Origin: Cellulosimicrobium sp. Marseille-Q4280
GTDB taxonomy: Bacteria; Actinomycetota; Actinomycetes; Actinomycetales; Cellulomonadaceae
Direction: 5' to 3'
Length of the DNA stretch: 64,000 bases
Assembly: GCF_943181405.1 (NCBI RefSeq)
Contig: NZ_CALPBY010000005.1
Location: 124,001 to 188,000 of the forward strand
Position numbers and translations under genes: made by a program. Within the stretch, counting starts at the first letter, position 1. Each line of letters begins with the position of its first letter. The notes beneath the pieces were generated by a model. The model was not told the origin of the DNA. It did no database searches and saw nothing but the letters and a program-made list of their open reading frames with translations. Below, in pieces: positions 2,507 to 40,977 of this stretch.

Positions 2507-2548
2507 GCCCGGCTCCGGCCGGGCACCCCTCGCGGACCGGGAGGTCGG

Positions 2549-6279: not shown

Positions 6280-6333
6280 GTGCGGCGCCGACATGACGCG
6301 GGGCGGACGCGTCGGCGGCCCCGTCGCCCAAAG

Positions 6334-6816: not shown

Positions 6817-6906
6817 GCTCGTCCTCCTCGTTCGGTGGTGTCCGCCCGACCGTAGCCGGGACGAACCTCACCCGCGCCCCGGCGGCCGCCGACGTCGCGG
6901 CCCCGG

Positions 6907-6921
6907 TAGCCTGTGCGCGTG
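6907..6921 (+). promoter_or_regulatory. Leaderless promoter of the LacI gene
   Basis: TAGCCT (6907-6912), then GTGCGC, then the GTG start at 6919. The start codon lies where transcription would begin, with no ribosome-binding site. The same TANNNT-GTGCGC-GTG arrangement occurs at 45718 and 46440. Confidence 0.6.
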
Positions 6922-7989: not shown

Positions 7990-8034
7990 CCACCTCCTCC
8001 CCTCCTGCCGCAGCGCGTGGCGCGACCTTCGTGG

Positions 8035-8063
8035 TTGACGTCGGAAAGCGCATTCCCTATGCT
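8035..8063 (+). promoter_or_regulatory. Strong sigma-70-type promoter of the sugar operon
   Basis: TTGACG at 8035-8040, a 17-base spacer, and TATGCT at 8058-8063: the best vegetative promoter match in the window. It lies 64 bases before the ATG of the Gfo/Idh gene. Confidence 0.75.
8043..8056. promoter_or_regulatory. LacI-family operator
   Basis: GGAAAGCGCATTCC matches the typical GGAAAGCGCTTTCC dyad of LacI-family sugar repressors at 13 of 14 positions. It fills the spacer between the -35 and -10 boxes, an ideal position for repression by the LacI protein encoded immediately upstream. Confidence 0.75.
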
Positions 8064-8126
8064 GGGTCGCACCAGCTTCTCTCGCCGACCTCGCCGTCGC
8101 GCGACTGACAGGACGGAGTCGTCCCG

Positions 8127-9293: not shown

Positions 9294-10585
9294 GCGCCGC
9301 CACCCTCGCGGTCCCCGGCTCGCGCGAGCTGCGCGACCGGGACGGGTCGGGCGCCGTCGTGCACCTGCCCCGGTTCGCCGACGACGGCCGGGTCGCGGGC
9401 ACCGAGGTGCGCGAGCTCCTCGTGCCGGGCCCGTGGTCCCGGCCGACCGCCCCGATCACGTCGCGCGTCGCCTTCGCCGCGGCGCACGTCGTGCCGCAGG
9501 TCGGCGCCGAGAACGTGCCGGGCCACCCGGCTCTCGTCGACTGGGACGCCACGCTCGGCTTCCGGCACCGCATCTGGGAGCACGGTCTCGGCGTCGCCGA
9601 CGCGATGGACACCGCCCAGCGCGGCATGGGCCTCGACTGGGCCGCGACACAGGAGCTCGTGCGCCGCTCGGCTGCCGAGGCGCGCTCCGTCGGCGCCCGG
9701 ATCGCGTGCGGCGCGGGGACCGACCAGCTCGACCCCGCGGTCGTCGCCGGCTGGACGCCGGGCGACCCGGCGGCGCTCGACGCCGTCGTCGACGCGTACC
9801 GCGAGCAGGTCCGCGTCGTCCAGGACGCCGGCGCGCAGGTCGTCGTCATGGCGTCGCGCGCGCTCGCGCACGTCGCGCGGTCGCCCGAGGACTACGCGCG
9901 CGTCTACGACGCCGTGATCGCCGAGGCGGACAGGCCCGTGATCCTCCACTGGCTCGGGACGATGTTCGACCCGGAGCTCGAGGGCTACTGGGGCACGACC
10001 CGGACCGACGACGCGACCGACGTGTTCGTCGACCTGGTCCGCGCCCACCAGGGAGGGATCGACGGGGTCAAGGTGTCGCTGCTCGACGCCGACCACGAGA
10101 AGGGCCTCCGCGCACGCCTGGCGAGCCTCGACCCGGGCACCGGGCCGGACGCGCCCGGGCCCGTGCGCCTGTACACGGGCGACGACTTCAACTACCCGGA
10201 CCTCGTCGTGGGCGACGGGAAGCGGCACTCGGACGCGCTGCTCGGCGTCTTCGCGGCGATCTACCCGGCCGCGTCGACGGCGCTCCAGGCGCTCGACGCC
10301 GGTCACCCCGACCGCGCGCACGCCGTCCTCGCGGCGACGGAGGCGCTCGGGCGGCACCTGTTCACCGCGCCGACCTACCACTACAAGACCGGCATCGCGT
10401 TCCTCGCGTGGCTCAACGGCGCGCAGCCGGGCTTCCAGATGGTCGGCGGCCTCCACTCCGGCCGGTCGGTCGCCCACCTCGTCGCCCTCCTCCGCCTCGC
10501 GGACCGGGCCGGGCTCCTGCTCGACCCGGACCTCGCCGCGCGGCGCGCTCGCGTCTTCCTCGAGGCGAACGGGGTGACCCGATGA
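9290..10585 (+). CDS. DUF993-family protein (dihydrodipicolinate synthase-like TIM barrel)
   Basis: A 431-residue cytoplasmic protein matching the DUF993 family, which is built on a class I aldolase-like TIM barrel. Recognisable stretches include ENVPGHPALVDWDATLGFR, RIACGAGTDQL, YDAVIAEADRPVILHWLG, GIDGVKVSLLDADHE, LYTGDDFNYPDLVVGDG and HYKTGIAFLAWLNG. The Lys in VKVSLLD sits where Schiff-base lysines of the DapA superfamily lie, but that is inference. It starts in a GTGA overlap with the dehydrogenase and ends in an ATGA overlap with the isomerase gene. This trio recurs in sugar-catabolic clusters; the chemistry is not established to my knowledge. Confidence 0.88.
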   Translation: MSAATLAVPGSRELRDRDGSGAVVHLPRFADDGRVAGTEVRELLVPGPWSRPTAPITSRVAFAAAHVVPQVGAENVPGHPALVDWDATLGFRHRIWEHGLGVADAMDTAQRGMGLDWAATQELVRRSAAEARSVGARIACGAGTDQLDPAVVAGWTPGDPAALDAVVDAYREQVRVVQDAGAQVVVMASRALAHVARSPEDYARVYDAVIAEADRPVILHWLGTMFDPELEGYWGTTRTDDATDVFVDLVRAHQGGIDGVKVSLLDADHEKGLRARLASLDPGTGPDAPGPVRLYTGDDFNYPDLVVGDGKRHSDALLGVFAAIYPAASTALQALDAGHPDRAHAVLAATEALGRHLFTAPTYHYKTGIAFLAWLNGAQPGFQMVGGLHSGRSVAHLVALLRLADRAGLLLDPDLAARRARVFLEANGVTR

Positions 10586-11517
10586 CCGGCCCTGCACCGA
10601 CGAGCGCACCCGGACGCGCGTCGTCGGGCACCGGCTCCGCCGACCTGTCGCGCTGCTCGCTCAACACCGCGACCGTCAAGCGCGCGACGCTCGAGAAGGC
10701 CGTGGCCCTCGCCGCCGAGGCGGGGTACGGCGCCGTCGGGCTGTGGCGCGACCGCGTCCAGGAGATCGGCGCGGACCGCGCAGCCCGCGTCGTCGCGGAC
10801 GCCGGCCTGCGCGTGTCGTCGCTGTGCCGGGGCGGGTTCCTCACCGCCCCGGACGACGCCGGGATCGCCGCCGCGCTCGACGACAACCGGCGCGCCATCG
10901 AGGAGGCCGCGACGATCGGGACGAGCGAGCTCGTGTTCGTCGTCGGCGGCCTGCCCGCCAGCGGCACGCCCGGTCAGGGACCGCGTCCCGACGCCGGACC
11001 CGGGGACCGCGACGTCGTCGCCGCGCGCGCCCGCGTCGCGGACCGGATCGGCGACCTCGTCCCGTTCGCGACCGAGCACGGCGTGCGGATCGTCCTCGAG
11101 GCGCTGCACCCGATCTTCGCCGCCGACCGCGCCGTGATCTCCACGCTCGGCCAGGCGCTCGACCTCGCGGCGCCGTTCGACGCCGCGGCCGTGGGCGTCG
11201 TCGTGGACACCTACCACGTGTGGTGGGACCCGGCCCTGCGCGAGAGCATCGCACGCGCCGGTGCCGAAGGACGTGTGGCGGGCTACCAGGTCTGCGACTG
11301 GATCCTGCCGCTCGCGAGCGACCCCCTGCTGTCGCGCGGGTACGTCGGCGACGGGTACGTCGACTTCCCGACGATCACGCGGTGGGTCGCCGAGACCGGC
11401 TACGCGGGCGACGTCGAGACCGAGATCTTCCACCAGGAGATCTGGGACGCCGACCCGCGCGACGTCGTGGCGACCGTCGCGGAGCGCTACGCGCGTCACG
11501 TGCTGCCGCACCTGTAG
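10582..11517 (+). CDS. Sugar phosphate isomerase/epimerase (xylose isomerase-like TIM barrel)
   Basis: A 311-residue protein of the AP-endonuclease-2/xylose isomerase-like superfamily. Metal ligands expected for the fold are visible: Glu in VLEALHPIF, Asp/His in VVDTYHVWWDP, and Glu in VETEIFHQEIW; the start of the barrel is CSLNTATVKRATLEKAV. The first ~20 residues are a low-complexity Ala/Pro/Ser leader. It is the last gene of the operon (ATGA overlap with DUF993) and is followed by a very long hairpin. Likely role: isomerisation of a keto-sugar or inosose produced by the dehydrogenase upstream. No transporter is part of this operon. Confidence 0.88.
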   Translation: MTGPAPTSAPGRASSGTGSADLSRCSLNTATVKRATLEKAVALAAEAGYGAVGLWRDRVQEIGADRAARVVADAGLRVSSLCRGGFLTAPDDAGIAAALDDNRRAIEEAATIGTSELVFVVGGLPASGTPGQGPRPDAGPGDRDVVAARARVADRIGDLVPFATEHGVRIVLEALHPIFAADRAVISTLGQALDLAAPFDAAAVGVVVDTYHVWWDPALRESIARAGAEGRVAGYQVCDWILPLASDPLLSRGYVGDGYVDFPTITRWVAETGYAGDVETEIFHQEIWDADPRDVVATVAERYARHVLPHL

Positions 11518-11544
11518 CCCTCCTCTCGCCGCACCGCGGCACCT

Positions 11545-11612
11545 CGAGACCGGCAGTCCGGCCCGAGATCGGCACCCCTCCCTGCCGATCTCGGACCGGG
11601 CTGCCGGTCTCG
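11545..11612. terminator. Very long near-perfect hairpin after the sugar operon
   Basis: The 30-base arms 11545-11574 and 11583-11612 pair at 28 positions plus two G-T pairs around an 8-base C-rich loop. Left arm begins CGAGACCGGCAG; right arm ends CTGCCGGTCTCG. No T-tract. It is longer than needed for a terminator and may be a REP-like element. Confidence 0.75.
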
Positions 11613-11640
11613 TGCCGTCCCGGCTCGTCGCGGCCGCCTC

Positions 11641-11669
11641 TTGACGAACGTCGTGCGGAGGCGCATGAT
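11641..11669 (+). promoter_or_regulatory. Promoter of the copper ATPase gene
   Basis: TTGACG at 11641-11646, a 17-base spacer, CATGAT at 11664-11669. Transcription would start close to 11676, just before the CsoR-type operator. Confidence 0.65.
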
Positions 11670-11678
11670 CGGACGTAG

Positions 11679-11695
11679 ATACCCCCTGGGGGTAT
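11679..11695. promoter_or_regulatory. CsoR-type copper operator
   Basis: ATACCCCC-T-GGGGGTAT is a perfect 17-base dyad of the G/C-tract type bound by CsoR copper-sensing repressors. It lies over the expected transcription start of the copper ATPase gene, so copper should derepress the gene. No csoR gene is in the window. Confidence 0.8.
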
Positions 11696-11715
11696 AAATG
11701 AGCTCAGGAGGAACG

Positions 11716-13986
11716 ATGGGACAGCAGAACGAGCCCGGTCACCGGCACGAGGGCCACAGCGCCGCGGGCGTCGCTCCCGCGAACGGTCGCGGAGCCGGCG
11801 GCACCGTCGCGCACGACGCGTCCGGCGACGGGACGTCGGGGCACCAGATGGCGCAGCACGACATGACGGAGCACGGTGGGCACGACATGACGGAGCACGG
11901 CGGGCACGGCGGGCACGGTGGGCACGGCGACCATGTGGCGCAGTTCCGGCGGCTGTTCTGGGTCATGCTCGCGCTCGCGATCCCGACGGTCGCGCTGAGC
12001 CCCATGTTCGCGATGCTGCTGGGGTACGAGCTGCCCGACGCCGCGTGGGTGCCCTGGGTCTCCCCCGTGCTCGGCTCGGTGATCTTCCTGTGGGGCGGTC
12101 GCCCGTTCCTCTCCGGCGCCGTGAGCGAGCTGCGCGACCGCGCGCCCGGGATGATGACGCTCATCTCGCTCGCGATCACGGTCGCCTTCGTGTCGTCGCT
12201 CGGAGCGTCGCTCGGGCTGCTCGCGCACGAGCTCGACGTGTGGTGGGAGCTCGCGCTGCTCGTCGTCATCATGCTGCTCGGGCACTGGATCGAGATGCGC
12301 TCGCTCGCGCAGACGGCCTCCGCGCTCGACTCGCTCGCGGCGCTCCTGCCCGACGAGGCGGAGCGCGTCGCCGACGACGGGACCGTCACGACGGTCGCCC
12401 CGACCGACCTCGGCGTGGGCGACCTCGTGATCGTCCGCCCCGGCGGGCGGGTCCCCGCCGACGGCGAGGTGGCCGACGGCAGCGCCGACGTCGACGAGTC
12501 GATGATCACGGGCGAGTCGCGCCCGGTGCGCCGGTCGGTCGGCGACCCGGTCGTCGCCGGCACCGTCGCGACCGACGACGCGCTGCGCGTGCGCATCACC
12601 GCCGTCGGGGACGACACCGCGCTCGCCGGCATCCAGCGTCTGGTCGCCGACGCGCAGTCCTCCTCCACGAGGACGCAGCGCCTCGCCGACCGCGCCGCCG
12701 GGTGGCTGTTCTGGTACGCGCTCGGCGCCGCGGCGCTCACCGTGGCCCTCTGGCTCGTCTTCGGAACCCCCGAGCAGGCGCTGATCCGCGCGATCACGGT
12801 GCTGGTCATCGCGTGCCCCCACGCGCTGGGACTCGCGATCCCGCTCGTCGTGTCGATCTCGACCGAGCGGGCCGCGAAGGCCGGGGTCCTCGTGAAGGAC
12901 CGCCTCGCGCTCGAGCGGATGCGCACGGTCGACACCCTGCTCTTCGACAAGACCGGCACGCTCACCGCGGGCGAGCCCGTCGTCACCCACCTCGCCGTGG
13001 CCGGCGACCGCACCGAGGACGAGCTGCTCGCGCTCGCCGCCTCCGCGGAGGCCGACAGCCAGCACCCCCTCGCGCGGGCGATCGTCGCCGCGGCAGAGGG
13101 ACGCGGCGTCGACACCCCCCACGCTTCCGGCTTCCGGTCGCTCACGGCGGTCGGGGTCGAGGCGACGGTTCCCGGGCCGGAGGGCGGTCGACGGGTCGCC
13201 GTCGGCGGTCCCGCGCTGCTGCGCGAGCGTGGTCTCGAGCCGCTGCCCGACGCCGCGGCGTGGGAGCGCGACGGCGCGACCGTCCTGCACGTGGTCGTCT
13301 CGGACACGGCTGACCTCGCCGAGGGAGACCCTCGGACGACCGAGGGAGCACCCCGGTCGGCCGAGGGAGCACCCCGGTCGGGCCGGGTCGTGGGTGCGCT
13401 CGCGCTGGCGGACGCGGTCCGGCCGGAGTCGCGCGAGGCCGTCGACGCGCTGCACCGGCGTGGCGTCCGCGTCGTCATGATCACGGGCGACGCCGAGCCG
13501 GTCGCCCGGGCGGTCGCCCGCGAGCTCGGCATCGACCAGGTCTTCGCGGGCGTGCGCCCCGAGGACAAGGACGCGAAGGTCGCCGAGCTGCAGCACGAGG
13601 GCCGCGTCGTCGCGATGGTCGGTGACGGCGTGAACGACGCCCCGGCCCTCGCCCAGGCGGACGTCGGCATCGCGATCGGCGCGGGGACCGACGTCGCCAT
13701 CGCGTCCGCGGGCGTGATCCTCGCGAGCTCCGACCCGCGGGCCGTGCTCTCGATCATCGAGCTGTCCCACGCGTCCTACCGCAAGATGCAGCAGAACCTG
13801 TGGTGGGCGGCGGGCTACAACATCGCGGCCGTCCCCCTCGCGGCCGGCGTGCTCGCACCGGTCGGGTTCGTCCTGCCCATGGCCGTCGGCGCGATCCTCA
13901 TGTCCGTCTCGACCGTCGTGGTCGCCGCCAACGCGCAGCTCCTGCGCCGCGTCGACCTCGACCCGGCCCGCCTCGCGTCCCGCTGA
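11716..13986 (+). CDS. Copper-exporting P1B-type ATPase, CopB class
   Basis: A 756-residue heavy-metal pump. The first ~75 residues are an extreme His-rich cytoplasmic tail (HRHEGHS, HDMTEHGGHDMTEHGG, several GGH units) in place of CXXC domains. Core motifs: ITGES near 265, the CPH transmembrane triad (ACPHALG, Cys about 366) that marks the CopB subgroup, the phosphorylated Asp in DKTGT near 411, SQHPLARA, and GDGVNDAPALAQADVG. Eight membrane helices fit. The ATG at 11716 follows AGGAGG; the in-frame ATG at 11698 lacks a site. Residues about 535-557 are an expansion encoded by a 21-bp tandem repeat. Probable role: Cu(+/2+) efflux under the operator at 11679. Confidence 0.93.
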   Translation: MGQQNEPGHRHEGHSAAGVAPANGRGAGGTVAHDASGDGTSGHQMAQHDMTEHGGHDMTEHGGHGGHGGHGDHVAQFRRLFWVMLALAIPTVALSPMFAMLLGYELPDAAWVPWVSPVLGSVIFLWGGRPFLSGAVSELRDRAPGMMTLISLAITVAFVSSLGASLGLLAHELDVWWELALLVVIMLLGHWIEMRSLAQTASALDSLAALLPDEAERVADDGTVTTVAPTDLGVGDLVIVRPGGRVPADGEVADGSADVDESMITGESRPVRRSVGDPVVAGTVATDDALRVRITAVGDDTALAGIQRLVADAQSSSTRTQRLADRAAGWLFWYALGAAALTVALWLVFGTPEQALIRAITVLVIACPHALGLAIPLVVSISTERAAKAGVLVKDRLALERMRTVDTLLFDKTGTLTAGEPVVTHLAVAGDRTEDELLALAASAEADSQHPLARAIVAAAEGRGVDTPHASGFRSLTAVGVEATVPGPEGGRRVAVGGPALLRERGLEPLPDAAAWERDGATVLHVVVSDTADLAEGDPRTTEGAPRSAEGAPRSGRVVGALALADAVRPESREAVDALHRRGVRVVMITGDAEPVARAVARELGIDQVFAGVRPEDKDAKVAELQHEGRVVAMVGDGVNDAPALAQADVGIAIGAGTDVAIASAGVILASSDPRAVLSIIELSHASYRKMQQNLWWAAGYNIAAVPLAAGVLAPVGFVLPMAVGAILMSVSTVVVAANAQLLRRVDLDPARLASR
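13320..13382 (+). repeat. 21-bp coding tandem repeat in the copper ATPase
   Basis: Three 21-bp units: 13320-13340 (diverged), 13341-13361 and 13362-13382 (nearly identical, CGAGGGAGCACCCCGGTCGG plus one base). They encode EGAPRSA-type heptapeptides inserted in a loop of the cytoplasmic P/N domain just before VVGALALADAV. The phase is preserved, so length changes would stay in frame. Confidence 0.8.
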
Positions 13987-28640: not shown

Positions 28641-28750
28641 CCGCGGTACTACCTCGCGAGGTAGTACCGCGGTCGATGTGGAAGGACCTCGGTACTGCTT
28701 CGCGAGGTAGTACCGCGGTCGATGTCGAGGGACCTCGGTACTACTTCGCC
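28641..28750. repeat. 46-bp tandem repeat carrying a 32-bp palindrome, at the 3' end of topA
   Basis: Unit 1 (28641-28686) begins with a perfect 32-base palindrome at 28641-28672 (left half CCGCGGTACTACCTCG) followed by a 14-base tail TCGATGTGGAAGGA. Unit 2 (28687-28732) repeats both with a few changes (tail TCGATGTCGAGGGA). A truncated third unit (28733-28750) runs into the topA stop codon. The GAGGTAGTACC core reappears at 33620 and in the array at 33732. It may act as terminator for topA and for the convergent permease gene. Confidence 0.85.
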
Positions 28751-31557
28751 GACCTGGCAGCAGGCTTCTTCGCGGGAGCCTTCTTCGCGGCGGGCTTCTT
28801 GGCCGGCGTGCGCTTCTTCGCCGGGCCCTGCGCGCGCTTCTCCGCGAGGAGCTCGATCGCGCGCTCGGGCGTGATCGACTCCGGGGTGACGTCGCGCGGC
28901 AGGGTGCGGTTGGTCTCGCCGTCGGTCACGTAGGCCCCGAAGCGGCCGTCCTTGACGACGATCGGCGTGCCCGTGGTCGGGTCGTCGCCGAGCTCGCGCA
29001 ACGGCGGGGTCGCGGCGCCGCGCCCGCGCCCGCGCTTCGGCTGCTTGTAGAGCTCGAGCGCCTCGTCGAGCGTGACGGTGAACATCGCCTCCTCGCTCGG
29101 GAGGGTGCGCGAGTCCGTGCCCTTCTTGAGGTAGGGACCGTAGCGGCCGTTCTGCGCCGTGATCTCCTCGCCCGACTCGGGGTCCGTCCCGACCACCCGG
29201 GGCAGCGACAGGAGCTGCAGGGCGTCCTCGAGCGTGACCGACTCGAGCGTCTGCGTCTTGAGCAGCGACCCGGTGCGGGGCTTGGGCTGCGCGGCCTTCG
29301 CGCGCTTCTGGGCCGCGGCCGACAGGCTCGTGTCGATCGGCGGGAGGTCGAGCACCTCGGTGACGTACGGGCCGTAGCGCCCGGCCTTCGCGATGATCTC
29401 GTTCCCCGAGACCGGGTCGGTCCCGAGCACCCTGCCGTCGTCCGCCCCGGCGGCGAGCAGCTCGCGCGCCTTGGCGACGGTCAGCTCGTCGGGGGCGACG
29501 TCGTCGGGCACGGAGGCGCGCGGCGGGTTCTCGCCCTCCTTCACCTCGGCGGCGAGGTCCTCGACGTAGGGGCCGTAGCGCCCGACGCGCAGCTGCAGAC
29601 CCTCGCCGATCGGCACGGAGTTGATCCCCCGTGCGTCGATGTCGCCGAGGTTCTCCACGAGCTCACGCAGGCCCTCGCCCGCCTCGCCCTTCGCGGCGTC
29701 CCCGAAGTAGAAGTGCGTGAGCCACTCGACGCGGTCGCGGCGGCCGGCCGCGATCTCGTCGAGGTCCGCCTCCATCGCCGCCGTGAACCGGTAGTCCACG
29801 AGCCGGTCGAAGTGCTCCTCGAGGAGGCGCACGACGGCGAACGCGAGCCAGCTCGGCACCATCGCCTGGCCGCGCGTGAGCACGTAGCCGCGGTCCTGGA
29901 TGGTCGAGATCGTCGACGCGTACGTGGACGGACGGCCGATGCCGAGCTCCTCGAGCGCCTTGACGAGGCTCGCCTCGGTGTAGCGCGGCGGGGCCGACGT
30001 CGAGTGGCCGGCCGCCTCGAGGTCCTCGCCGCGCAGCGCGTCGCCCTGCGCCATCTGCGGCAGGCGCGCCTCGCCGTCCGTGTCGCCGCCCTTGCCTGTG
30101 GCGCCGAGCGAGTCCTCGGCGTACCGGTCGACGTCCGAGCTCTCCTCGTACGCCGCGAGGAAGCCGCGGAACGTGATGACCGTGCCCGACGCCGCGAACA
30201 CCGCGTCGCGGCCGGCGACCCCGGCCTCCTCGGTCCCCTGCACGGTGGCGAGCGGCGCGCCCAGGCGCACCGACGCGGTCGAGCCCTTGGCGTCCGCCAT
30301 CTGTGACGCGACCGTGCGCTTCCACACGAGCTCGTAGAGCTTGAACTGGTCGCCGCTCAGCTCCTTCGCGACCTGCGCGGGCGTGCGGAACGAGTCCCCC
30401 GCGGGGCGGATGGCCTCGTGCGCCTCCTGCGCGCCCGCGTTCTTCGACGCGTACACGCGCGGCTTCTCCGGCACGAAGTCCGCGCCGTAGAGCTCGGCGG
30501 CCTGACGCCGCGCGGCGCTCGTCGCCTCGCTCGACAGCGACGGCGAGTCGGTGCGCATATAGGTGATGTAGCCGTTCTCGTACAGCGACTGCGCGGTGCG
30601 CATCGTCTGGCGCGACGACATGCGCAGCTTGCGGCTGGCCTCCTGCTGGAGCGTCGACGTCGTGAACGGCGCGGCCGGACGACGCGTGTACGGCTTGGTC
30701 TCGAGCGAGCGCACGACGAAGTCCGCGTCCGCCAGACCGGCGACGACCGCCCCGGCCGTCGCCTCGTCGAGCTGCCGCACGCCGTCGCGCTGCGCCGCCG
30801 GCTTGAGCTGGCCACGGTCGTCGAAGTCGCGCCCGGACGCGACCCGCGCGTCGCCGAGCTGCACGAGACGGGCGCCGAACGCCTTGCCGGCGTCGTCGGG
30901 GGCGGCGGCCGCGGCCGCGCCCGCAAGGCCGAACGTCCCGGAGACGTCCCAGTACTCGGCCGCGACGAACGCCATGCGCTCGCGCTCACGCTCGACGACG
31001 AGGCGCGTCGCGACGGACTGCACGCGGCCCGCCGACAGGCCCTGACGGACCTTGCGCCACAGCACCGGGGAGACCTCGTAGCCGTAGAGACGGTCGAGGA
31101 TGCGGCGAGTCTCCTGCGCGTCGACGAGGCTCGTGTCCAGGTCGCGCGTGTTCTGCAGCGCCCGCTGGATCGCCTCGCGCGTGATCTCGTGGAACACCAT
31201 GCGCTTGACCGGGACCTTGGGCTTGAGCGCCTCGAGCAGGTGCCACGCGATGGCCTCGCCCTCGCGGTCCTCGTCCGTCGCGAGGTAGAGCTCGTCGGCG
31301 TCCTTGAGGGCGCGCTTGAGCTCGGCGACCTTCTTCTTCTTGTCCGCGTAGACCTCGTAGTACGGGTCGAAGCCGTTGTCGACGTCGACCGCGAACTTCC
31401 CGTACGGGCCCTTCTTCATGTCCGCGGGCAGCTCCGACGGCTGCGGCAGGTCCCGGATGTGCCCGACGCTCGCCTCGACCTCGTAGTCGTCGCCGAGGTA
31501 GCCCTGGATCTTGCGAGCCTTGGCGGGCGACTCGACGATCACGAGCTTGCGTGGCAT
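28741..31557 (-). CDS. topA: DNA topoisomerase I
   Basis: A 938-residue type IA topoisomerase that relaxes negative supercoils. The TOPRIM domain begins RKLVIVESPAKARKIQGYL with the acidic ATDEDREGEAIAWH; the catalytic Tyr333 is in YITYMRTDSPSLS. The C-terminal part holds repeated toprim-C elements seen as GRYGPYV units (for example RVGRYGPYVEDL, AKAGRYGPYVTEV, GRYGPYLKKG, GRFGAYVTDG) and ends in a Lys/Ala/Pro tail (KKPAAKKAPAKKPAAR) typical of actinobacterial TopA. The stop lies inside the repeat at 28733-28750. GGATGGG precedes the ATG. In many actinobacteria tmk and holB follow directly; here other genes lie between. Confidence 0.97.
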   Translation of the reverse strand: MPRKLVIVESPAKARKIQGYLGDDYEVEASVGHIRDLPQPSELPADMKKGPYGKFAVDVDNGFDPYYEVYADKKKKVAELKRALKDADELYLATDEDREGEAIAWHLLEALKPKVPVKRMVFHEITREAIQRALQNTRDLDTSLVDAQETRRILDRLYGYEVSPVLWRKVRQGLSAGRVQSVATRLVVERERERMAFVAAEYWDVSGTFGLAGAAAAAAPDDAGKAFGARLVQLGDARVASGRDFDDRGQLKPAAQRDGVRQLDEATAGAVVAGLADADFVVRSLETKPYTRRPAAPFTTSTLQQEASRKLRMSSRQTMRTAQSLYENGYITYMRTDSPSLSSEATSAARRQAAELYGADFVPEKPRVYASKNAGAQEAHEAIRPAGDSFRTPAQVAKELSGDQFKLYELVWKRTVASQMADAKGSTASVRLGAPLATVQGTEEAGVAGRDAVFAASGTVITFRGFLAAYEESSDVDRYAEDSLGATGKGGDTDGEARLPQMAQGDALRGEDLEAAGHSTSAPPRYTEASLVKALEELGIGRPSTYASTISTIQDRGYVLTRGQAMVPSWLAFAVVRLLEEHFDRLVDYRFTAAMEADLDEIAAGRRDRVEWLTHFYFGDAAKGEAGEGLRELVENLGDIDARGINSVPIGEGLQLRVGRYGPYVEDLAAEVKEGENPPRASVPDDVAPDELTVAKARELLAAGADDGRVLGTDPVSGNEIIAKAGRYGPYVTEVLDLPPIDTSLSAAAQKRAKAAQPKPRTGSLLKTQTLESVTLEDALQLLSLPRVVGTDPESGEEITAQNGRYGPYLKKGTDSRTLPSEEAMFTVTLDEALELYKQPKRGRGRGAATPPLRELGDDPTTGTPIVVKDGRFGAYVTDGETNRTLPRDVTPESITPERAIELLAEKRAQGPAKKRTPAKKPAAKKAPAKKPAARSAK

Positions 31558-31693: not shown

Positions 31694-32773
31694 CTACTCC
31701 TGAACCCCGACGGCGTCCGGACGAGCCGTGGACTGGCGGACGAGCAGGAGCAGCGCGAAGGCACCGGCCGTCACCCCGGCCACGCCGGCGACGCCGCCGA
31801 GGTACGCGGTCGCCTCCTGCGCGGTCGTCGTGTCCCACGTGGCCGGCGTCGCGCGCATCGTCCACAGGGCGACGACGCCCGACGCCGCCGCCCCCAGGAG
31901 CAGGAGCACCGCCGTCACGACGGATCCCGGCGAGGCGCCGGCGCGCGGGTCGAGCGACGAGCGCGGCGTGAACGCGCACACGAGCGCGCCCCACGCGAGC
32001 ACCACGAGGACTGCAGCGACGACGTCGCTCGGCCGGTGCCACTGCCCGACGAGCGTCGAGACACCGATCGCGGCCGTGTACGCGCCGCCGAGGACGGCCA
32101 CGAGGGGCCGCGCCGCCCGGGGCACCACGAGGAGCAGCGCCGCCGCGACCGACGCCGCGACGGTCGTGTGCCCGCTCGGCAGCGAGTTCTCCGCCGTCCA
32201 GCCACCGATGAGGTTCTCGCGCCCGAGCAGGACGTGCTTGACCGCCTGGGTCGTCACGTTGGCCCCCACGACGACGAACCCGACCTGGACCGCGAGCCCC
32301 CAGCGCCGCCGCACGACGGCGATCGCCATCGCTGCGGCGAGACCGACGACGACGAACGTCACCGACACCGTGTCCAGCACGGGCTCGCCCAGCGTCCACA
32401 GCGGGCCCTGCCCGTTCACCGCGCCGTCGAACGCCGCGCGCTCGAGCATCTGGCCCGCGTACGTGTCGACGAAGAACCGCCACACGGCCCAGGCGAGGGC
32501 GGCCGCGGCGACCGCGACCAGCCCGGCGACGACACGCGGGGCGACCCGCGCCGTCGGGCCGGGCTGCGCCGTCGGGCCTGGCCGCTCGGACGGGCCGGAC
32601 GTGCCGGACGTGCCGACCGGGCGCTGCGGGCCTGCGGACGGACGAGCCGACGGTGCGGCGGGAGTCCCGGAGTGCGGTCCGACGGTCGGCCCTGCCGGCG
32701 CCGCGACCGGCAGCGGGCGCGTCCCGGTCCCGCCACCGGTCGGCAGCGGTCGGGTCGGCGCGTGGTCGGACAT
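31694..32773 (-). CDS. PAP2-superfamily membrane phosphatase
   Basis: A 359-residue protein. The first ~85 residues are a Pro/Gly/Ser-rich cytoplasmic tail. Seven to eight membrane helices follow. The acid-phosphatase motifs are KHVLLGRENLIGG (motif 1, slightly diverged), NSLPSGHTTVAAS (motif 2) and STLVGQWHRPSDVVAA (motif 3), the pattern of undecaprenyl-pyrophosphate or lipid phosphate phosphatases. The ATG at 32773 follows TACGGT plus GGGAGG: the start may be leaderless, although GGGAGG also resembles a ribosome-binding site placed too close. Located upstream of topA on the same strand. Confidence 0.87.
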   Translation of the reverse strand: MSDHAPTRPLPTGGGTGTRPLPVAAPAGPTVGPHSGTPAAPSARPSAGPQRPVGTSGTSGPSERPGPTAQPGPTARVAPRVVAGLVAVAAAALAWAVWRFFVDTYAGQMLERAAFDGAVNGQGPLWTLGEPVLDTVSVTFVVVGLAAAMAIAVVRRRWGLAVQVGFVVVGANVTTQAVKHVLLGRENLIGGWTAENSLPSGHTTVAASVAAALLLVVPRAARPLVAVLGGAYTAAIGVSTLVGQWHRPSDVVAAVLVVLAWGALVCAFTPRSSLDPRAGASPGSVVTAVLLLLGAAASGVVALWTMRATPATWDTTTAQEATAYLGGVAGVAGVTAGAFALLLLVRQSTARPDAVGVQE

Positions 32774-32911: not shown

Positions 32912-33616
32912 ATGACCGACGTCTCCTCGCGGCCGCTCCCCGCGGACGGCGACGCGCGCGTCCGCCGGGCGCGCCGCCCCCGCCCCGAGACGCTCGCGCG
33001 GCGCGAGGAGATCCTCCGTGCCGCCATGAACGTGTTCGGCTCCCGGGGGTACCACCAGGGGTCGCTGGCCGAGGTCGCGGAGCAGGTCGGCATCACGCAC
33101 GCGGGCGTGCTGCACCACTTCGGGTCGAAGGACCGGCTGCTCACCGCCGTCCTCGAGTTCCGCGACCGGGAGGACGTCGCGCACCTCGAGGGACGGCACA
33201 TCCCCGGTGGACTCGACCTGTTCCGGCACCTCGTGCTGACCGCCGCCATGAACGCCGAGCGCCCGGGCATCGTCCAGGCGTACACCGTCATCGCGGGCGA
33301 GGCCGTGACCGACGGCCACCCCGCGAGCGCGTGGGTCACCGCGCGGTTCGCCGGGCTCCGCGCCGACATCGCCGGTGCGCTGCGCGAGGTCGTCGAGGAG
33401 CGCCGCGCCGCGGGGGCGGACGTCGTCGACCTCGAGCTCGACGACGCGGCGCTCGACCGTGCGGCGTCGTCGATCATCGGCGTCATGGACGGCCTGCAGA
33501 CGCAGTGGCTCCTCGACCCGGACGCCGTCGACCTCGCCGAGGCGACGGCCTTCGCGATCGAGGCGATCCTGGCGGCCACCCTTGCGGGCGCACAGCGACC
33601 GCGCCCGCTGGCCTGA
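32912..33616 (+). CDS. TetR-family transcriptional regulator
   Basis: A 234-residue regulator. The HTH domain spans about residues 28-75 (RREEILRAAMNVFGSRGY, SLAEVAEQVGITHAGVLHHFGSKDRLL), and the C-terminal part is an all-helical ligand-binding domain. A basic N-terminal arm (RVRRARRPRPETLARR) precedes the HTH. The ATG lies 7 bases after TAAGGT (leaderless type). It is divergent from the PAP2 phosphatase gene, which it may control, and convergent with jetC across the repeat region. Effector unknown. Confidence 0.92.
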   Translation: MTDVSSRPLPADGDARVRRARRPRPETLARREEILRAAMNVFGSRGYHQGSLAEVAEQVGITHAGVLHHFGSKDRLLTAVLEFRDREDVAHLEGRHIPGGLDLFRHLVLTAAMNAERPGIVQAYTVIAGEAVTDGHPASAWVTARFAGLRADIAGALREVVEERRAAGADVVDLELDDAALDRAASSIIGVMDGLQTQWLLDPDAVDLAEATAFAIEAILAATLAGAQRPRPLA

Positions 33617-33619
33617 CCG

Positions 33620-33660
33620 CCGAGGTAGTACCCCGGTCCGTTGAAGTAGGACCTGGGGTC
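33620..33660. repeat. Single copy of the GAGGTAGTACC repeat element after tetR
   Basis: This stretch (CGAGGTAGTACCCCGGTC, then GTAGGACCTGGGGT) matches the right half plus tail and next left end of the 46-bp unit at 28657-28694 with a handful of substitutions and a short insertion. It begins right after the tetR stop codon. Confidence 0.7.
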
Positions 33661-33673
33661 ACCCGCTCCCGGA

Positions 33674-33713
33674 CCCGACGCCGAACGGGGGAAGGCCCCC
33701 ACGCGTCGTCGGG
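33674..33713. terminator. Hairpin terminator between tetR and jetC
   Basis: CCCGACG (33674-33680) pairs with CGTCGGG (33707-33713), and inside it GGGGG (33687-33691) pairs with CCCCC (33696-33700) around AAGG. It probably ends the tetR transcript and could end the jet operon. Confidence 0.6.
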
Positions 33714-33731
33714 CAGGGGCCGACCGCCGTC

Positions 33732-33845
33732 CTACCTCGCGCTACTGAGGTACTACCTCGCGCTGCTGCCGTACTACCTCGCGCTACTGAGGTACTACCT
33801 CGCGCTGCTGCCGTACTACCTCGCGCTACTGAGGTACTACCTCGG
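33732..33845. repeat. 21-bp tandem array at the 3' end of jetC
   Basis: Alternating 21-base units A (TACTACCTCGCGCTACTGAG plus G) and B (same, ending CTGCTGCCG): partial A from 33732, B 33751-33771, A 33772-33792, B 33793-33813, A 33814-33834 and a final partial unit to 33845. So the true period is 42 bases. The last unit contains the jetC stop codon and final codons. In the plus direction the phase is open and would encode [14 protein letters not shown] heptads. The core GGTACTACCTCG is shared with the palindrome at 28641. Confidence 0.9.
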
Positions 33846-36800
33846 CCAGGGCGACGTCGCGCGTGCCACCGGAGTCCGCGCGGTCGCGCCCGTCACGGCC
33901 GTCCCGGTCGTCGCGGCGGTCCCGGTCGTCGCGGCCGTCGCGGTAGGCGTCGATCGTCAGTGTCCGCAGGCGCGACGAGCGCCCGCTCGGGTTGTCCACG
34001 AACCCGACGGCGGAGATGTACGGCTCGATGACGTGGATCTTCTGCAGCGGCGTGACGATGAGCAGCTGGAGGCCGAGGCGCCGGAACAGCTCGAGCGCGA
34101 ACCGCGTCGACTCGTCCGATCCGCGCCCGAACGCCTCGTCGATGACGACGAACCGGAACGCCGTCGAGCGCACCGCGCCCCAGTCGAGCTTGAACTGGTA
34201 GGCGAGCGACGCCGCGAGGATCGTGTAGGCGAGCTTCTCCTTCTGCCCGCCGGACTTCCCGCCGGAGTCGGAGTAGTGCTCGTGCTCGGAGTCGTCGGCG
34301 CGCGACCGCTCCGAGGCCGACAGCACGAACCAGTTGCGCACGTCCGTCACGCGCCGGCGCCACGCGTCGTCGAGGTCGGACATCCCCTCGCGCCCGCGGA
34401 ACCGCTCGACGAGCGCCTTGACGCGCAGGAAGCGGTCCTCCGAGTACGACAGCGCGCCGTCGACCGCCGAACCGTCCCCCTCGGCCAGCGCGCGGTCGTC
34501 CTCGGCGAGGATCCCGTCGCCGTCGGTGCACGCGCGCAGGTCCTGCTGGAACTCGCGCACCTCGACGTTCGGCGTGCGCGACACCTCGAGGCGGATGTAG
34601 CGACCCGGGTTGTAGTCGATCGCGCGCAGCGAGTCGTTGATCGTGTCGATGCGGTCCCGGATGAGGTCGGCCTGCTTGGCCAGCTCCGCGGCGAACCCGG
34701 CGATGTCGCGGATCGCGTTGGTGTTGAGGTACGCCTTGAAGTCGGCCTCGAAGCGCGGCAGGTCGTCGCGCACGAGCCGGTCGTGGATCTCGCGGTAGCC
34801 GCCGGCGGAGCGCACGTCGGCGTCGAGCTCCGCGGTCTCCACGGGGTAGGCGGACCGGAACGCCGCCATCTGGCCAGCGATGCGCGTGCCGAGGTCCGCG
34901 CGCTCGCGCTGTGCCTGCTCGGCCTCGGCCGTGAGCCGCGAGCGCACCGCGTTCTCGACGGCGTCCAGGTCGGCCGCACGGGTCGGCCCACCCGGCGGCA
35001 CTCCCGGCGGCTCAGCCGCCACGCCCCCCGCTCGCGCAGCACCTGTCGTCGGCCCGGCCGACGCGAGCTCGCGGTCGAACTCCTCGGCGAGCGCCGCCGT
35101 CGTCTCCTCGTCGAGCGCCTCGCCGGCGGTGTCGAGCACCGCGCGGGCCCGGTCGCGCGCGGTCCGCGCCTCGTCGAGCGCGTGCCGGTCGGCGCCGAGC
35201 GTCGCGACGACGCGGTCGCGCTCGGCCTCGAGCCCGGCCTGGCGGCGCGCGATGCCCGCGAGCGCGCCGGCGATGCGGCCGAGCTCGTCGCTCGCCTCCT
35301 CGAGGCGGCGCTTCTCGGCGTCGAGCTCGGCGATGCGCGCGACCTCCGCGCGCCAGTCGAGCTCGTCCCAGTCGCGGTACACGTCGGCCCTGCCGAGGGC
35401 CGCCGACCGCTCCTGGAGGTCCGCGCGCCGTGCGGCCGCCGCGTCCCGACGCCGGGCCAGCGCGTCCCGGCGCGCGGTCACCTCGGCCGCCTGCTCCAGC
35501 AGCGCGTCGACCTTCGCCTGCGTCGACCAGCCGAGCACGTACCCGCGGCGGTCGTCGACGGCGCGCACGTCGTTCTTCTCGTGGTGGTCCGGCGAGTGCT
35601 TGACCTGACCGGAGCGGGTGACGGCCCGCGGCAGCCGGCGGAACGCGGCGAGGTCGTCGGCGCACGCGTGGTCGGCGCGACGCTCGATCTCGGCCTCGAC
35701 CCACGCCGTGAGCGCGGGCGCGTCGTGGAGCGTGCGGACGTCCAGCAGGTCGGCGAGCAGGAGCGCGCCGTCGGGCCGGTCGGCACGCCGGGGTGCGCCG
35801 ACCCGCTCGGGCACCCGGTGGTAGACGAGGCGCAGGCCCAGGTGCTCGCGGTCCACCCACGCGGCGACGGCCTCGTAGTGCGCCGCCGGGACGAGCAGCG
35901 ACAGCGCGAAGCCGCGCAGCACGCGCTCGGCCGCGCCCTCCCACGCCTCGTGCTCGGGGCGGACGGCGAGCAGCTCGCCCACGAACGGCAGGTCGTCGGG
36001 CGTCAGACCCACGCCCGCGCACAGGCGGTCGCGGACGTCGAGGTGGGTGCGCGGCAGGTTGGAGCGGCGGTCGGCGAGGCTCGCGAGCTCGGCCTTGACG
36101 TCCGAGGTCTCCTGCTCGACGACGCGCAGCTCGGCCGCGACCCCGGCCGCGTCCTCCTCGGCCCGGGCGAGGTCCTCGCGCACGCCCGACGCCGCGGCGT
36201 CGGCCTCGCGGCGGAGCGCCGCGAACGCCTCGGCGTCGACGAGCGCGTCCGCGAGCGCCCGGACGGCGTCGCCGTGACCTGCAACCCGGGGTTCGGCACC
36301 CGAGGTGAGCGTGAGCCCTGCACGGACCGCGTAGCCCGCGAGCTGCGTCGCGCGTCGTTCGCGGGCCGCGCGCTCGACCTCGCGCCGCGCGATCTCGCCC
36401 TCGATCGCGGCGAGCCGGTCACCGCCGTGCCCTGCGCGCTCGAGCTCGAGCCGCTGCCGCTCCGCGCCGAGGATCCCGAGCTCTTCCCCGGCCCGCGCCC
36501 GACGCGACTCGCCGTCCGCGACCCGCTCGTCGAGCGCGGCGATGAGCCCGTCGAGGTCCGCCACGCGTCGCGACGCGGTGAACGCGCGCAACGCGTCGCG
36601 ACGCGCCGTCACGGCGTCGGCACGCCGCCCGAGCGCGTCGTGGGCGTCGACGTCCGCGAGCAGCGGTGCGAGGCGGTCGATCTGCGCCGTCGCGCGGACG
36701 ACCGCGTCGTGCGCGGACGTCAGGTCGTCGAAGTGCGCGACGAGCCGGTCGGTCCAGCGGTCGGCGTCGAAGGGCTCGAGCATGTGCTCGCGCACGAACT

Positions 36801-37494
36801 CCCCGAGGTCCCCGACGGACTTCATCGACACCGTCTGGTGGAACAGGTCCATCGCCTGGTCCGACGGGATGCCCAGGAGCCGGCGGAAGTCCCGCCCGTA
36901 CTCGGGGAAGTGGTCGCGCACCTGCGCGCCCGACTCCCGCAGCCGACGGCGCAGCGCCGCGACGTCGCCCCCGAACCCGGCGAAGTCCTCGGTGATGGTC
37001 AGCGGCCGGTCGGTCGTGACGAAGAACCGGTCGGGCTGCCCCGACTGCCCTTGCGCGAGCCAGAACACCTGCGCGAGCGTCACCTGCTGGTCGAAGCCGC
37101 GGTTCGCGAACCGACCGAGCACGACCGAGTAGGTGCCCCGCTCGCGCAGCCCGACGTGCCGCGTGGTGCCCGTCGCCTCGTCGCGCTCCGACTTGAAGTG
37201 GCCCGCGACGTACGAGCGCAGCGACCGCTCGCGCGCCCCCGCTCCCGCGGCCTTGTTGTAGGAGATGCGGTGCGACGGCACGAGGAGCGTCGTCACGGCG
37301 TCGACGATCGTCGACTTGCCCGACCCGATGTCGCCCGTGAGCAGCGCGTTGCGCCCGTCGAGGTCGAACGCCCACACGCGCTGGTCGAACGTGCCCCAGT
37401 TGAGGACCTCGAGGCGCTCGAGCCGGAAGCCGGCGCGGGCGTCGAGGTCGGTCGCCGGGTCGTGCAGCTCGACCGGGCTGAACAGGCCCTCCAT
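33826..37494 (-). CDS. jetC: Wadjet/MksB-type SMC-like ATPase JetC
   Basis: A 1222-residue SMC-like ATPase. Walker [10 protein letters not shown] is at 54-62 after the head start [19 protein letters not shown]. Two long Arg/Glu/Ala coiled-coil arms flank a hinge-like domain (about 500-600, [19 protein letters not shown]). The C-terminal head has the signature [16 protein letters not shown] near 1080 and Walker [21 protein letters not shown] near 1115. This is the MukB/MksB-like subunit of JetABCD, which senses and extrudes circular plasmid DNA. The start overlaps the jetB stop (TGATG). The last ~35 residues are an Asp/Arg-rich low-complexity tail ([19 protein letters not shown]) encoded by repeats. 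No jetD follows. Confidence 0.93.
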
Positions 37495-38240
37495 CAGTCC
37501 ACCGTCACCTTCGTCGAAGCGGTCGTGCCCTGCCGGCCGGCGTCGCCCCGCCCGGCGGCCACCTCCAGGTACTGCGCGAGCCGTGCGTCGAGGTCCGCGA
37601 GCCACTGCGCGTCCACGAACGCCTTGAGGATGCGACGGACCTCGAACCGCCGGACGTCGCCCTCGCCCTCCCCGGCCGGACCGGCCGTACCGTCCGGGTC
37701 GGCGGTCCCGGGTCCGGGCGCGTCGTCGGGCAGCGTCTGACGGCCCGCGGGACGCAGGAACCCCAGCTCGACGACGCGCCGCACGAGGCCGTCGACCCGG
37801 TCGACGAGGCGCGCCTCGTTCGCCACCGCACCGGCGTCCTGCACGAGGAAGACGCGCAGCAGCTCGACGATCTCGGCGCGCGTGAGCACGAGCCGCGTGT
37901 CCCCGCCCTCGGAGTCGGACTGCGCGAGCCGCTTGCGCAGCAGCGCGAGGAGCAGGCTCACGTCGAACGGCAGCTCGCGCCGCGGGATCAGGCGCGGCAC
38001 GCGCTCGTCGCGCTCGTGCTCCGGCTGGGACCGCAGGTACGCGTACCCGTCGCCCGCGTCGACGACCAGCTGGAGCCCGAGCAGCGCGACGGCGTCGCGC
38101 ACCTGCGCGTCCAGCGCGAGCAGGTCGCGCCAGGTCTCCTCGCCCGACTCGCGGTACACGACACCTTTGAGCAGGGACGTGACGACGACGGACAGCTCCG
38201 GGCTGCGCGCGGGACGGGTCGTGCTCGTCGGTGTGCTCAC
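37494..38240 (-). CDS. jetB: Wadjet subunit JetB (DUF4194, MksE/kleisin-associated)
   Basis: A 248-residue winged-helix protein of the DUF4194 family: [65 protein letters not shown] and [21 protein letters not shown] are characteristic. It corresponds to the KITE-type subunit (MksE) that bridges kleisin JetA and ATPase JetC. A Pro/Gly/Asp-rich insert lies at about 175-200. The GTG start is in a GTGA overlap with the jetA stop, with GAGGAG just upstream. Translation of all three genes is therefore coupled. Confidence 0.92.
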
Positions 38241-39904
38241 TGCTCCTCCTCGGGGCGGTTCGTGACGGGCGCGCCCGTCGCGGTGGCGGGCGCGCGCCGT
38301 GCGAAGGTCACGCGCGGCAGGCGCGCGACGCGCACCACCGGGTCGGGTGCGGGCGCGTCCTCGGGCAGGGCGTCCGCGTGCCCGACGGCAGGCGGCGGCT
38401 CCCCGAGCCAGCTCACCTCGTCGGTCGCCTCGTCGTCGTGCACGACGGCGAAGCGCGGGTCGTCGAGCGACAGGTAGGACACGAGCTCCGCGAGCCCGTG
38501 CTCGAGCGGGACGTCGCGGACCAGCTGGCCGAGCGAGACGTGGCCGCGACCGCCACGGCCGTCGGGACCCGACAGCGCGTCACGCACCGTCCGGGCGAGA
38601 CGCTCGGGGTCGACGTGCACCTGCTCGTAGAGCGCGGCGACCTCGAAGTCCTCGTCGCCCTCCTCGACGTGGTCGGAGTCGAGCCGGGCACCGGGCCGCG
38701 GCGTGAACAGCGGTCGCTCGGTCGGGAGCACGACCTCGGGCGCGACCGCGTCGATCACCGTCCCGGGCGGGCCGCCGGCGCCGGTGCGTGCGTCGTGCCG
38801 CGCGACGTCGCGGGCCGCGAGCGCCTTCGCCTCGATCCCACGCAGGATGTCCATGACCCGGCGGTTCTCGAGCCACACCTGGTCGTCGAGGAAGCGGCGC
38901 AGCTGCTCGGACAGCGTGCGGACCGTGGCCTGCGTGCGCTCTCCGGCGTCGAGCCAGTCGTAGTGGATGCGCCGGAGCCGTCGGTGCTCTGCACCGTGAG
39001 CGGCACCGTCCGCGGCCGCGTCCGCGGCGTCCCGCCCGACGAGCGGCACCGCGTCGACGGCGATCGCCTCGAGCGACTGCACCTGGTCGACGAGGGCGGC
39101 GAACTCCTCCTGCCGCCGACGGTCGAGGAGGAAGTCGTAGAACGCGTGGAACGAGCGACCCTGGTCCGACTCGGCGATCGCCGTGCGCGAGCGCACGACC
39201 TCCTCGAGCAGCTCGCCCTTGGCACCGTCCCAGCCGGTGATCCGCTCGCGCAGCGCGCGGTCGAGGGACCGGAAGTTGGCCTCGACCTCGCGGAAGTCGG
39301 ACAGCAGGTCGGCCGCGGTCTGCGTGAGCTGCTGGTAGCGGTCGCGCTGTGCGGCGGCGTCGAGCACGGCGACGCGGCCCGCGCGGACCTGCGCGATCTC
39401 GTCGTCGATCCGGTCGCGACGCTCCTCGAGCTCGCGCAGGCGCTCCGCCGGGTCGGTCTGGGCGCCGACCGTGAGCTGGCGCAGCAGCTCGAACACGGTG
39501 TTGAGCCGCGACTCCGTGCCGACGAACGCGCGTCCGCGCAGTGACGCGACCCAGCGCACGGCCTGCTCGACGGCGGGCGTCGCGTCGTAGTGCGGCTCCG
39601 TCGAACCCGGCGGGTACCACGCCCGCAGCCAGCCCTGGTCGGGGTGCGCCCAGTGGTCGACGTAGGCCTGAGGGGTGCGCGGGTAGCGCGGTTCGGGACC
39701 GCCCGCCCCGACGTCGGCCGGGCGGCGCAGCGCCCAGAGGTGGTCGTCGAGACGCGCGACGAGCTCGGTCTCGGGGATGGCCCGCACGTTCTCCTCGACG
39801 AACACCGTGCCGAGGAAGGACAGCACGAGCGGCGCCGTGTCCGCGCGGAGCAGCCGCCAGGCCGCGTTCGACCGTCGCAGGGTGTCGACGTCGTCGTGCA
39901 GCAC
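38237..39904 (-). CDS. jetA: Wadjet subunit JetA (DUF3375, kleisin/MksF)
   Basis: A 555-residue DUF3375 protein, first gene of the operon. Family marks: [23 protein letters not shown] at the N-terminus, [22 protein letters not shown], the helical [21 protein letters not shown], and the middle coiled region with [12 protein letters not shown] and [15 protein letters not shown]. As the kleisin it links the two JetC heads. I chose the GTG at 39904 because GAGAGGA lies 5 bases upstream and the family starts there; the longer frame to 40072 is Arg-rich and unsupported. The C-terminal ~60 residues are Pro/Ala-rich. Confidence 0.92.
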
Positions 39905-40227: not shown

Positions 40228-40977
40228 ATGAGCGACCCGACCACCGCCCTCGCCGACGACCGGCGCCTCGGCTCCGGGAGCGCGAGCGGCCGGTCGCCGT
40301 CGGGCACGCGGCCCGGACCGGGTGATGCGTCGGCGTCGGTCGAGCGAGGCGTGGCGGGGTTCGACCCGTTCGAGCGCCCCACCGGGTGGTCGCACTCCCG
40401 TCGGGTGCTGTTCGGCGAGATGCTCGTCTTCGCGCTCCTCAGCCTCGTCGCTGCCTTCGTGCTGTCCTACGACGCCGTCCTGCTCGCCGCGAACCCGACC
40501 GCCACGCTGTCGTGCGACGTCAACACCGTCCTGTCCTGCGGGACGGTCGCGCAGTCGTGGCAGGCCCAGGTGTTCGGCTTCCCCAACGCGTTCCTCGGGA
40601 TGATCGCCGAGCCGGTCGTCATCACGACGGCGGTCGCGGCGCTCGGCGGGACACGGTTCCCCCGCTGGTTCCTCTTCTCGGCGCAGTGCGTCTACCTCCT
40701 CGGCGTCGTGTTCGCCTACTGGCTCTTCTACCAGTCGATGGTCGTCATCGGTGCGCTGTGCCCGTGGTGCCTGCTCATCACCGTCTCGACGACGCTCGTC
40801 TTCGCGTCCCTCCTGCACTGGAACGTGCTCGAGGACAACCTCTACCTCCCGCGTCGCGCGCAGGCGCGGCTGCTCGGCTTCGTGCGGTCGGGCGCGTACG
40901 GCTACCTCGTCGCGGCGTGGCTCGTGGGCCTCGCGATCCTCGTCGTGCTGAAGTACGGGCCCGCGCTCTTCGCGTAG
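40228..40977 (+). CDS. Vitamin K epoxide reductase family protein (VKOR)
   Basis: A 249-residue membrane protein of the VKOR family, which in actinobacteria reoxidises DsbA-like thioredoxins by passing electrons to menaquinone. The first 55 residues are a disordered Ser/Pro/Gly leader. Membrane helices follow from about 58, the loop cysteines are Cys96 and Cys104 (LSCDVNTVLSC), and the active CXXC is Cys178-Cys181 (GALCPWCLL) next to the quinone site. GCGGAGG lies 7 bases before the ATG. There is no adjacent DsbA-like gene, so the partner is encoded elsewhere. Confidence 0.92.
   Translation: MSDPTTALADDRRLGSGSASGRSPSGTRPGPGDASASVERGVAGFDPFERPTGWSHSRRVLFGEMLVFALLSLVAAFVLSYDAVLLAANPTATLSCDVNTVLSCGTVAQSWQAQVFGFPNAFLGMIAEPVVITTAVAALGGTRFPRWFLFSAQCVYLLGVVFAYWLFYQSMVVIGALCPWCLLITVSTTLVFASLLHWNVLEDNLYLPRRAQARLLGFVRSGAYGYLVAAWLVGLAILVVLKYGPALFA

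Follow-up and report, generated by a model that had tools for sequence, protein, structure and literature searches.

Type I Wadjet systems (JetABCD), called MksFEBG in Corynebacterium glutamicum and EptABCD in Mycobacterium smegmatis, encode a kleisin (JetA), a KITE protein (JetB), an ATPase of the structural maintenance of chromosomes (SMC) type (JetC) and the nuclease JetD/MksG, which cuts the DNA of invading plasmids. Not every relative uses the nuclease: the MksBEF complex of Pseudomonas aeruginosa acts without MksG. This independence is implied by PMC7083940. MksBEF organizes the chromosome of P. aeruginosa and has a role in its maintenance (PMC7485682); strain PA14 also carries an mksFEBG operon (PMC10123090). 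JetABC was found to extrude plasmid DNA, and JetD is activated upon completed extrusion (PMC12647877; PMC10586767). Complexes of the Wadjet group lacking JetD/MksG have already been published, among them MukBEF of Escherichia coli, and the neighbours of MksG-less operons were examined with AlphaFold2 (PMC7617805). Here we describe a jetA-jetB-jetC operon without jetD in Cellulosimicrobium sp. Marseille-Q4280, found in a 64,000-nucleotide stretch of contig NZ_CALPBY010000005.1 (positions 124,001 to 188,000), which as a whole is referred to as the window.

The three genes form an intact type I Wadjet-like operon on the minus strand, extending from 39904 to 33826. An earlier interpretation made from the letters of the window (the sequence-only reading) had placed the operon at exactly these coordinates, and the families it named were confirmed by PF11855, PF13835 and the PADLOC model JetC1. 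JetA1, JetB1 and JetC1 were the top PADLOC models for the three proteins. The first gene, jetA (38237 to 39904), starts with GTG and encodes a kleisin of 555 amino acids with a DUF3375 domain (PF11855, 450 bits; JetA1, 613 bits); its N-terminal sequence VLHDDV is common to three Cellulosimicrobium orthologues (L061-L063). The jetB gene (37494 to 38240), also with a GTG start, codes for a KITE protein of 248 amino acids with a DUF4194 domain (PF13835, 122 bits; JetB1, 258 bits), and matches PF21980 (MksE) more weakly, at 47 bits. The SMC ATPase JetC (33826 to 37494) has 1222 amino acids, matches PF13555 (AAA_29) and PF13558 (SbcC_Walker_B) and scores 1373 bits with JetC1; its match to the N-terminal domain of MukB is below the family cut-off. 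We read its start as the ATG at 37494, the mechanically called open reading frame reaching further, to 37605. The Walker A, signature and Walker B patterns are all present. As the sequence-only reading had noticed, start and stop codons overlap: jetA and jetB share GTGA, jetB and jetC share TGATG.

In gene order, in these overlaps and in the DUF3375, DUF4194 and SMC-like JetC families, encoded together in one operon with intact JetC ATPase motifs, the locus resembles type I Wadjet, and its JetC falls in a subfamily of JetABCD systems from several phyla. It differs in lacking jetD, the gene for the DUF3322 plus JetD_C Toprim nuclease, and so has the composition of a nuclease-free Wadjet-group complex, an SMC-kleisin-KITE operon without MksG/JetD. 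Where JetD-bearing relatives have jetD, the window has a gap (33617 to 33825), in which a JetD remnant was not found and which contains most of a 42-bp tandem repeat (2.8 copies, 33726-33844). The repeat runs over the last bases and the stop codon of jetC; this array and the convergent tetR gene beyond it (32912-33616) are where the sequence-only reading had described them. Beside the 42-bp repeat, the 3′ end of jetC (33883-33944) contains 9- and 18-bp repeats encoding an Arg/Asp-rich tail.

The window genome is assembled in 12 contigs (4.86 Mb, 99.99% complete). Searched as a whole at E<=0.001, it gave no match to JetD_C (PF09983) or DUF3322 (PF11795); the same searches were positive in the control, C. 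glutamicum. We then searched at E<=1 with a profile built from 18 JetDs, of which 16 belong to the JetC subfamily of the window. The profile retrieved JetDs outside its own rows (L179, L180 and L181), two of which come from a second JetC branch. It did not match the window genome, and in all 30 of 31 searched genomes of the clade defined below were negative (17 Cellulosimicrobium, 7 Oerskovia, 1 of genus g16 and 6 of genus g22), including the single-contig Cellulosimicrobium genomes G113 and G117. The sole positive genome, G116, owes its JetD to a second, separate JetABCD; the JetC of that system shares 33% identity with the window JetC. JetD remnants were also sought as six-frame fragments of >=20 amino acids in 26 stretches without jetD, namely window 20001-50000 and the stretches of 25 loci. 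None was detected in 25 of them, the window part included, and the sole match, in L114 (Gordonia hydrophobica), is part of an upstream operon. A JetD match at window 33896-35011 turned out to be an artefact of untrimmed JetD open reading frames used as queries and disappeared with trimmed profiles. The absence of jetD beside the operon and in the window, claimed by the sequence-only reading, extends by these searches to the whole genome. Its suggestion that the gene might lie elsewhere found no match by either family or by the 18-row profile, and a jetD merely rearranged away in relatives is not supported, 30 of the 31 clade genomes being negative.

The JetC subfamily of the window spans Actinomycetota, Pseudomonadota and other phyla. 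Among the best 80 of at least 519 confirmed loci, 67 carry a jetD behind the matched jetC; the JetD of L114 is part of the upstream operon, and in 12 none was found within the examined stretch. These 12 comprise six loci of Cellulosimicrobium and Oerskovia, two of Gordonia, L097 (where the stretch ends with jetC), L137, L155 and L158. The last three, from Accumulibacter, Rhodoferax and a beta-proteobacterium, respectively, have a JetC of the same subfamily and no JetD in the examined flanks, which in L158 cover ~740 bases past jetC. In the tree L158 stands beside L155. We did not find jetA in L137 and L158, and in L155 it lies ~650 bases from jetB.

In a JetC tree of 70 rows, the 24 JetD-less rows of four genera (Cellulosimicrobium, Oerskovia, g16 and g22; 21 genomes, three of them represented twice) were monophyletic, with a support of 100 in the Shimodaira-Hasegawa-like approximate likelihood ratio test (SH-aLRT), and the clade was nested among systems with jetD after jetC. 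The JetD label needs two changes on this tree, compared to a mean of 21.7 for shuffled labels; the second change is Gordonia. This tree was built without the second JetC branch and with only four proteobacterial rows; it therefore lacks the JetD-less L137, L155 and L158, and it also lacks the clade loci L162, L164, L165 and L167 and locus L086, which was dropped because its jetC is in two frames. In a tree of 99 rows, which includes the second branch and L137, L155 and L158, ten changes were needed and the window clade (12 rows) again had an SH-aLRT of 100. The support values come from quick searches, the rows were chosen by us, and the trees contain no MksB or MukB rows. Because the JetD-less rows form one clade nested among JetD-bearing systems, jetD was probably lost a single time, before Cellulosimicrobium, Oerskovia and the two related genera diverged.

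The motor has been kept. An orthologue of the window JetC is present in all 17 Cellulosimicrobium genomes, which again distinguishes the operon from type I Wadjet, and forms one uninterrupted frame in 12. In G112, G119 and G124 the gene is in pieces, at least one of which is at a contig end, and in G118 it is spread over two contigs; G123 is discussed below. The ratio of non-synonymous to synonymous substitution rates (dN/dS), calculated for six pairs among four genomes, was 0.17-0.22 for jetA, 0.23-0.37 for jetB and 0.18-0.21 for jetC, compared to 0.12-0.20 for topA. These values show purifying selection on jetABC, and nothing exceptional. The Walker A, signature and Walker B patterns were found in all 24 clade rows across the four genera, the window included and G123/L086 left out; among 109 other rows, many of them from other branches, 79, 79 and 84 were positive for the three patterns.

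Next we looked at alignment columns that are at least 90% conserved in JetD-bearing relatives and scored them in 12 clade rows. They were identical in all 12 rows in 140 of 149 columns for JetA, 49 of 61 for JetB and 301 of 338 for JetC. Columns in which the conserved residue was fully replaced numbered 1 (0.7%), 3 (4.9%) and 5 (1.5%), respectively. In eight JetD-bearing clades the corresponding ranges were 0-5.0%, 0-10.8% and 0-4.6%, and the JetD-less Gordonia gave 4.0%, 14.8% and 6.8%, above the window clade. The measure is somewhat lenient, because 12 rows attain full replacement less easily than the three to seven rows of the controls, and the grouping was ours. A relaxed JetD interface in the clade was rejected, since replaced columns were not in excess over those of the eight JetD-bearing clades. 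In a first comparison the JetB proteins of the clade had appeared to lack an N-terminal stretch found in other JetBs of the family, and, according to a review, JetD makes contact with a motif in the JetB N-terminus. The loss of a docking N-terminus was rejected as well, because JetD-bearing members of the subfamily have a similarly short one.

Canonical SMC, judged from the SMC hinge and ScpB, is still there: ScpB was detected in all 17 Cellulosimicrobium genomes and the hinge in 16. A replacement of canonical SMC by JetABC was rejected on these counts. The clade differs in this respect from MukBEF, which apparently replaced Smc-ScpAB (PMC10586767), and is more like P. aeruginosa MksBEF, an SMC-kleisin-KITE operon alongside SMC, a likeness in description. 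It differs from MksBEF in that Cellulosimicrobium branches within JetABCD systems.

The surroundings of the operon are conserved in the genus. Downstream, beyond the convergent gene for a TetR-type regulator (plus strand, PF00440), which is probably not a component of the complex, lie the genes for a PAP2-family protein (31694 to 32773, minus strand, PF01569) and DNA topoisomerase I (topA, 28741 to 31557, minus strand, PF01131 and PF01751). Upstream of jetA is a divergent gene for a VKOR-family protein (40228 to 40977, plus strand; PF07884 on 40351-40977). The topA gene is downstream in all 14 Cellulosimicrobium loci (window, L061-L063, L162-L169, L081, L086), which represent 13 genomes, L081 and L166 being from the same genome; tetR and the PAP2 gene are present in 13 of them, L086 being the exception, and the VKOR-family gene in 13, the window included. 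In five of seven Oerskovia genomes the PAP2 gene and topA are also downstream, at ~4 kb past jetC in G166 and G172 and at ~14 to 15 kb in G168, G169 and G170; in G167 the contig ends before the latter distance. The single g16 genome (L177) has the order jetABC-PAP2-topA. TopA, PAP2 and this TetR were found in none of the other 74 subfamily loci (L087-L160) at E<=1e-10 in the examined flanks, some of which are short. Leaving g22 aside, vertical descent at the topA locus in three genera is the simplest explanation. A mobile operon was rejected: JetC was matched in 17 of 72,556 plasmid records (best identity 57%), none of Cellulosimicrobium or Oerskovia, and in one of 50,697 phage records (32% identity), in a search that may leave out records very close to the window genome.

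Missing jetD is common, contrary to the rarity implied by the sequence-only reading; JetD-less members published in PMC7617805 point the same way. In the family, as defined by GTDB, JetA was detected in 167 of 221 genomes and JetD_C in 31, all of them among the 167, which leaves 136 JetA genomes without a JetD_C match. Of 393 genomes sampled from the class, 71 had JetA (a few by fragments only), 44 had JetD_C (some of them weakly) and 30 had both, so that 41 of the 71 lacked JetD_C. Near relatives in the second JetC branch differ in having or lacking jetD at the same place between the same flanks (L067 and L066; L074 and L075). Two genomes, G030 and G081, have JetD only as a remnant. In G081 (L178, 3815-4132, minus strand) a frame of 106 amino acids downstream of a second-branch jetABC matches only the C-terminal JetD_C and is apparently a jetD in decay. 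In G030 (L070, contig C15, 8606-9163) the JetD is incomplete and its family match contains one in-frame stop, and no jetA, jetB or jetC was found in the surrounding 16 kb; a jetABC without jetD is on another contig of this genome (L069). Because JetA genomes are often without JetD_C, and because of the absences and decay in the second branch, the loss of jetD with jetABC kept is, as judged from gene content, recurrent.

L114 of Gordonia hydrophobica (234-12417) has two successive Wadjet operons: the first comprises jetA, jetB, jetC over two open frames and jetD, the second is a jetA-jetB-jetC of the window subfamily without jetD. The Gordonia loci, examined as locus stretches, also have no jetD after jetC. 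In the actinobacterial genera g75 (f30) and g46 (f11) many genomes have JetA and no JetD_C match, so that JetABC without JetD may be widespread in them too.

We favour the explanation, with a probability of roughly 0.57, that JetABC of the clade works alongside canonical SMC as an accessory loop extruder without a nuclease, its substrate being the chromosome or circular DNA. In this scenario a full type I Wadjet system would have lost jetD once in the ancestor of the clade and kept its JetABC motor as a core chromosomal operon. By analogy with known family members, the complex would still be loaded onto DNA as an SMC-motor dimer and use ATP hydrolysis for loop extrusion; without JetD, extrusion would end in holding or release instead of cleavage. 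Its use would be that of a second SMC complex shaping or segregating DNA, as MksBEF in P. aeruginosa. Of the three options named by the sequence-only reading, the data support the loss of jetD, followed by the keeping of a JetABC-only machine; the change of role we infer from fixation, synteny and purifying selection. Stronger formulations deserve less confidence. That a single nuclease loss turned a plasmid-cutting Wadjet into a core chromosomal motor beside canonical SMC has, in our estimate, somewhat less than an even chance. Equally tentative is the idea that such a conversion repeats, in a traceable lineage, the step from defence to organizer proposed for MukBEF and MksBEF.

Several observations weigh against the favoured explanation. 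In G123 (83% complete), jetC consists of overlapping pieces in different frames; this genome, apparently with the same contig as locus L086, was left out of the tree and of the motif count. A dN/dS of ~0.2 is ordinary, the neighbouring genes having values of 0.15-0.28 (PAP2) and 0.19-0.34 (TetR). JetABC is less conserved between genera than TopA, which would not be expected of a strict housekeeping gene: for Oerskovia the identity of JetC is 67% over the alignment (L077) and that of TopA 81-83%, for g16 65% in the best segment and 87%, respectively. With no relaxation of conserved columns, something could still be bound at the site of JetD. Neither PAP2 nor topA was found within ~20 kb in Oerskovia G171, nor in g22, where ~15 kb or more was covered on both sides in five genomes and the sixth has the operon on a 17-kb contig; given g22 and G171, vertical descent need not hold at every step. 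In C. glutamicum, MksBEFG, a system that includes MksG, did not contribute to chromosome folding (PMC7083940). Finally, the case is built on sequence comparison, and the function of JetABC in the clade is inferred.

The main rival is that JetABC continues to control plasmids without a nuclease: it would measure small circular DNA by total extrusion and then silence, sequester or mis-segregate the plasmid uncut. The nearly unchanged conserved columns of the motor are what would be expected if the sensing task is the same, and Smc5/6, which silences some viral genomes (PMC7617805), could offer a parallel. We nevertheless consider this possibility rather unlikely: in Bacillus subtilis all four subunits were needed for suppression of plasmid transformation (PMC10586767), and presence at one locus in 17 of 17 genomes of a genus is, as far as is known, unusual for a defence gene. 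It is less probable still that a nuclease encoded elsewhere replaces JetD as the partner of JetABC. Such a partner would explain why the conserved columns are not relaxed, and topA, whose product has a Toprim domain, neighbours the operon in three genera; TopA, however, looks like an ordinary topoisomerase I. None of the reference neighbours taken from the window, L077, L076 and L078 adjoins jetABC in all four genera. The five tested proteins encoded after JetD-less jetC genes of the second branch were two carbohydrate phosphorylases (L072, L079), a protein with a weak MazG match (L080), a PQQ_2 protein (L065) and one without a family (L071), none of them a recognized nuclease, and on these two counts a replacement nuclease within the operon was rejected.

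Two further explanations have very little probability. If jetABC were a functionless remnant awaiting loss, the decaying JetD pieces of G081 and G030 in another branch and the fragmented jetC of G123 would be of the expected kind. G123, however, is an incomplete draft, and slow decay is already disfavoured by the dN/dS values of 0.17-0.37 in the genus, by the orthologue in every Cellulosimicrobium genome and by the ATPase patterns in all 24 rows of four genera. A JetD hidden in a gap of the 12-contig assembly, or so divergent that it escapes the profiles, would also restore the nuclease; this is just as hard to believe, given 30 negatives in 31 genomes at E<=1, single-contig genomes among them, and a profile that recovers JetDs outside its own rows.

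As for published work on this operon, a literature search combining Cellulosimicrobium, plasmid and Wadjet led to PMC11706625, which in the passages concerned does not treat it, and nothing on Oerskovia and Wadjet was found in the open-licence literature. As far as that literature shows, what is new is a JetD-less clade nested among JetABCD systems, present in every searched genome of one genus with its motor nearly unchanged. For annotation this means that a solitary jetABC should not be counted as plasmid defence. The branch on which the nuclease was lost can be identified, the motor has hardly changed, and there are both JetD-bearing and JetD-less relatives; these three features make the role of a Wadjet motor without its nuclease directly testable.

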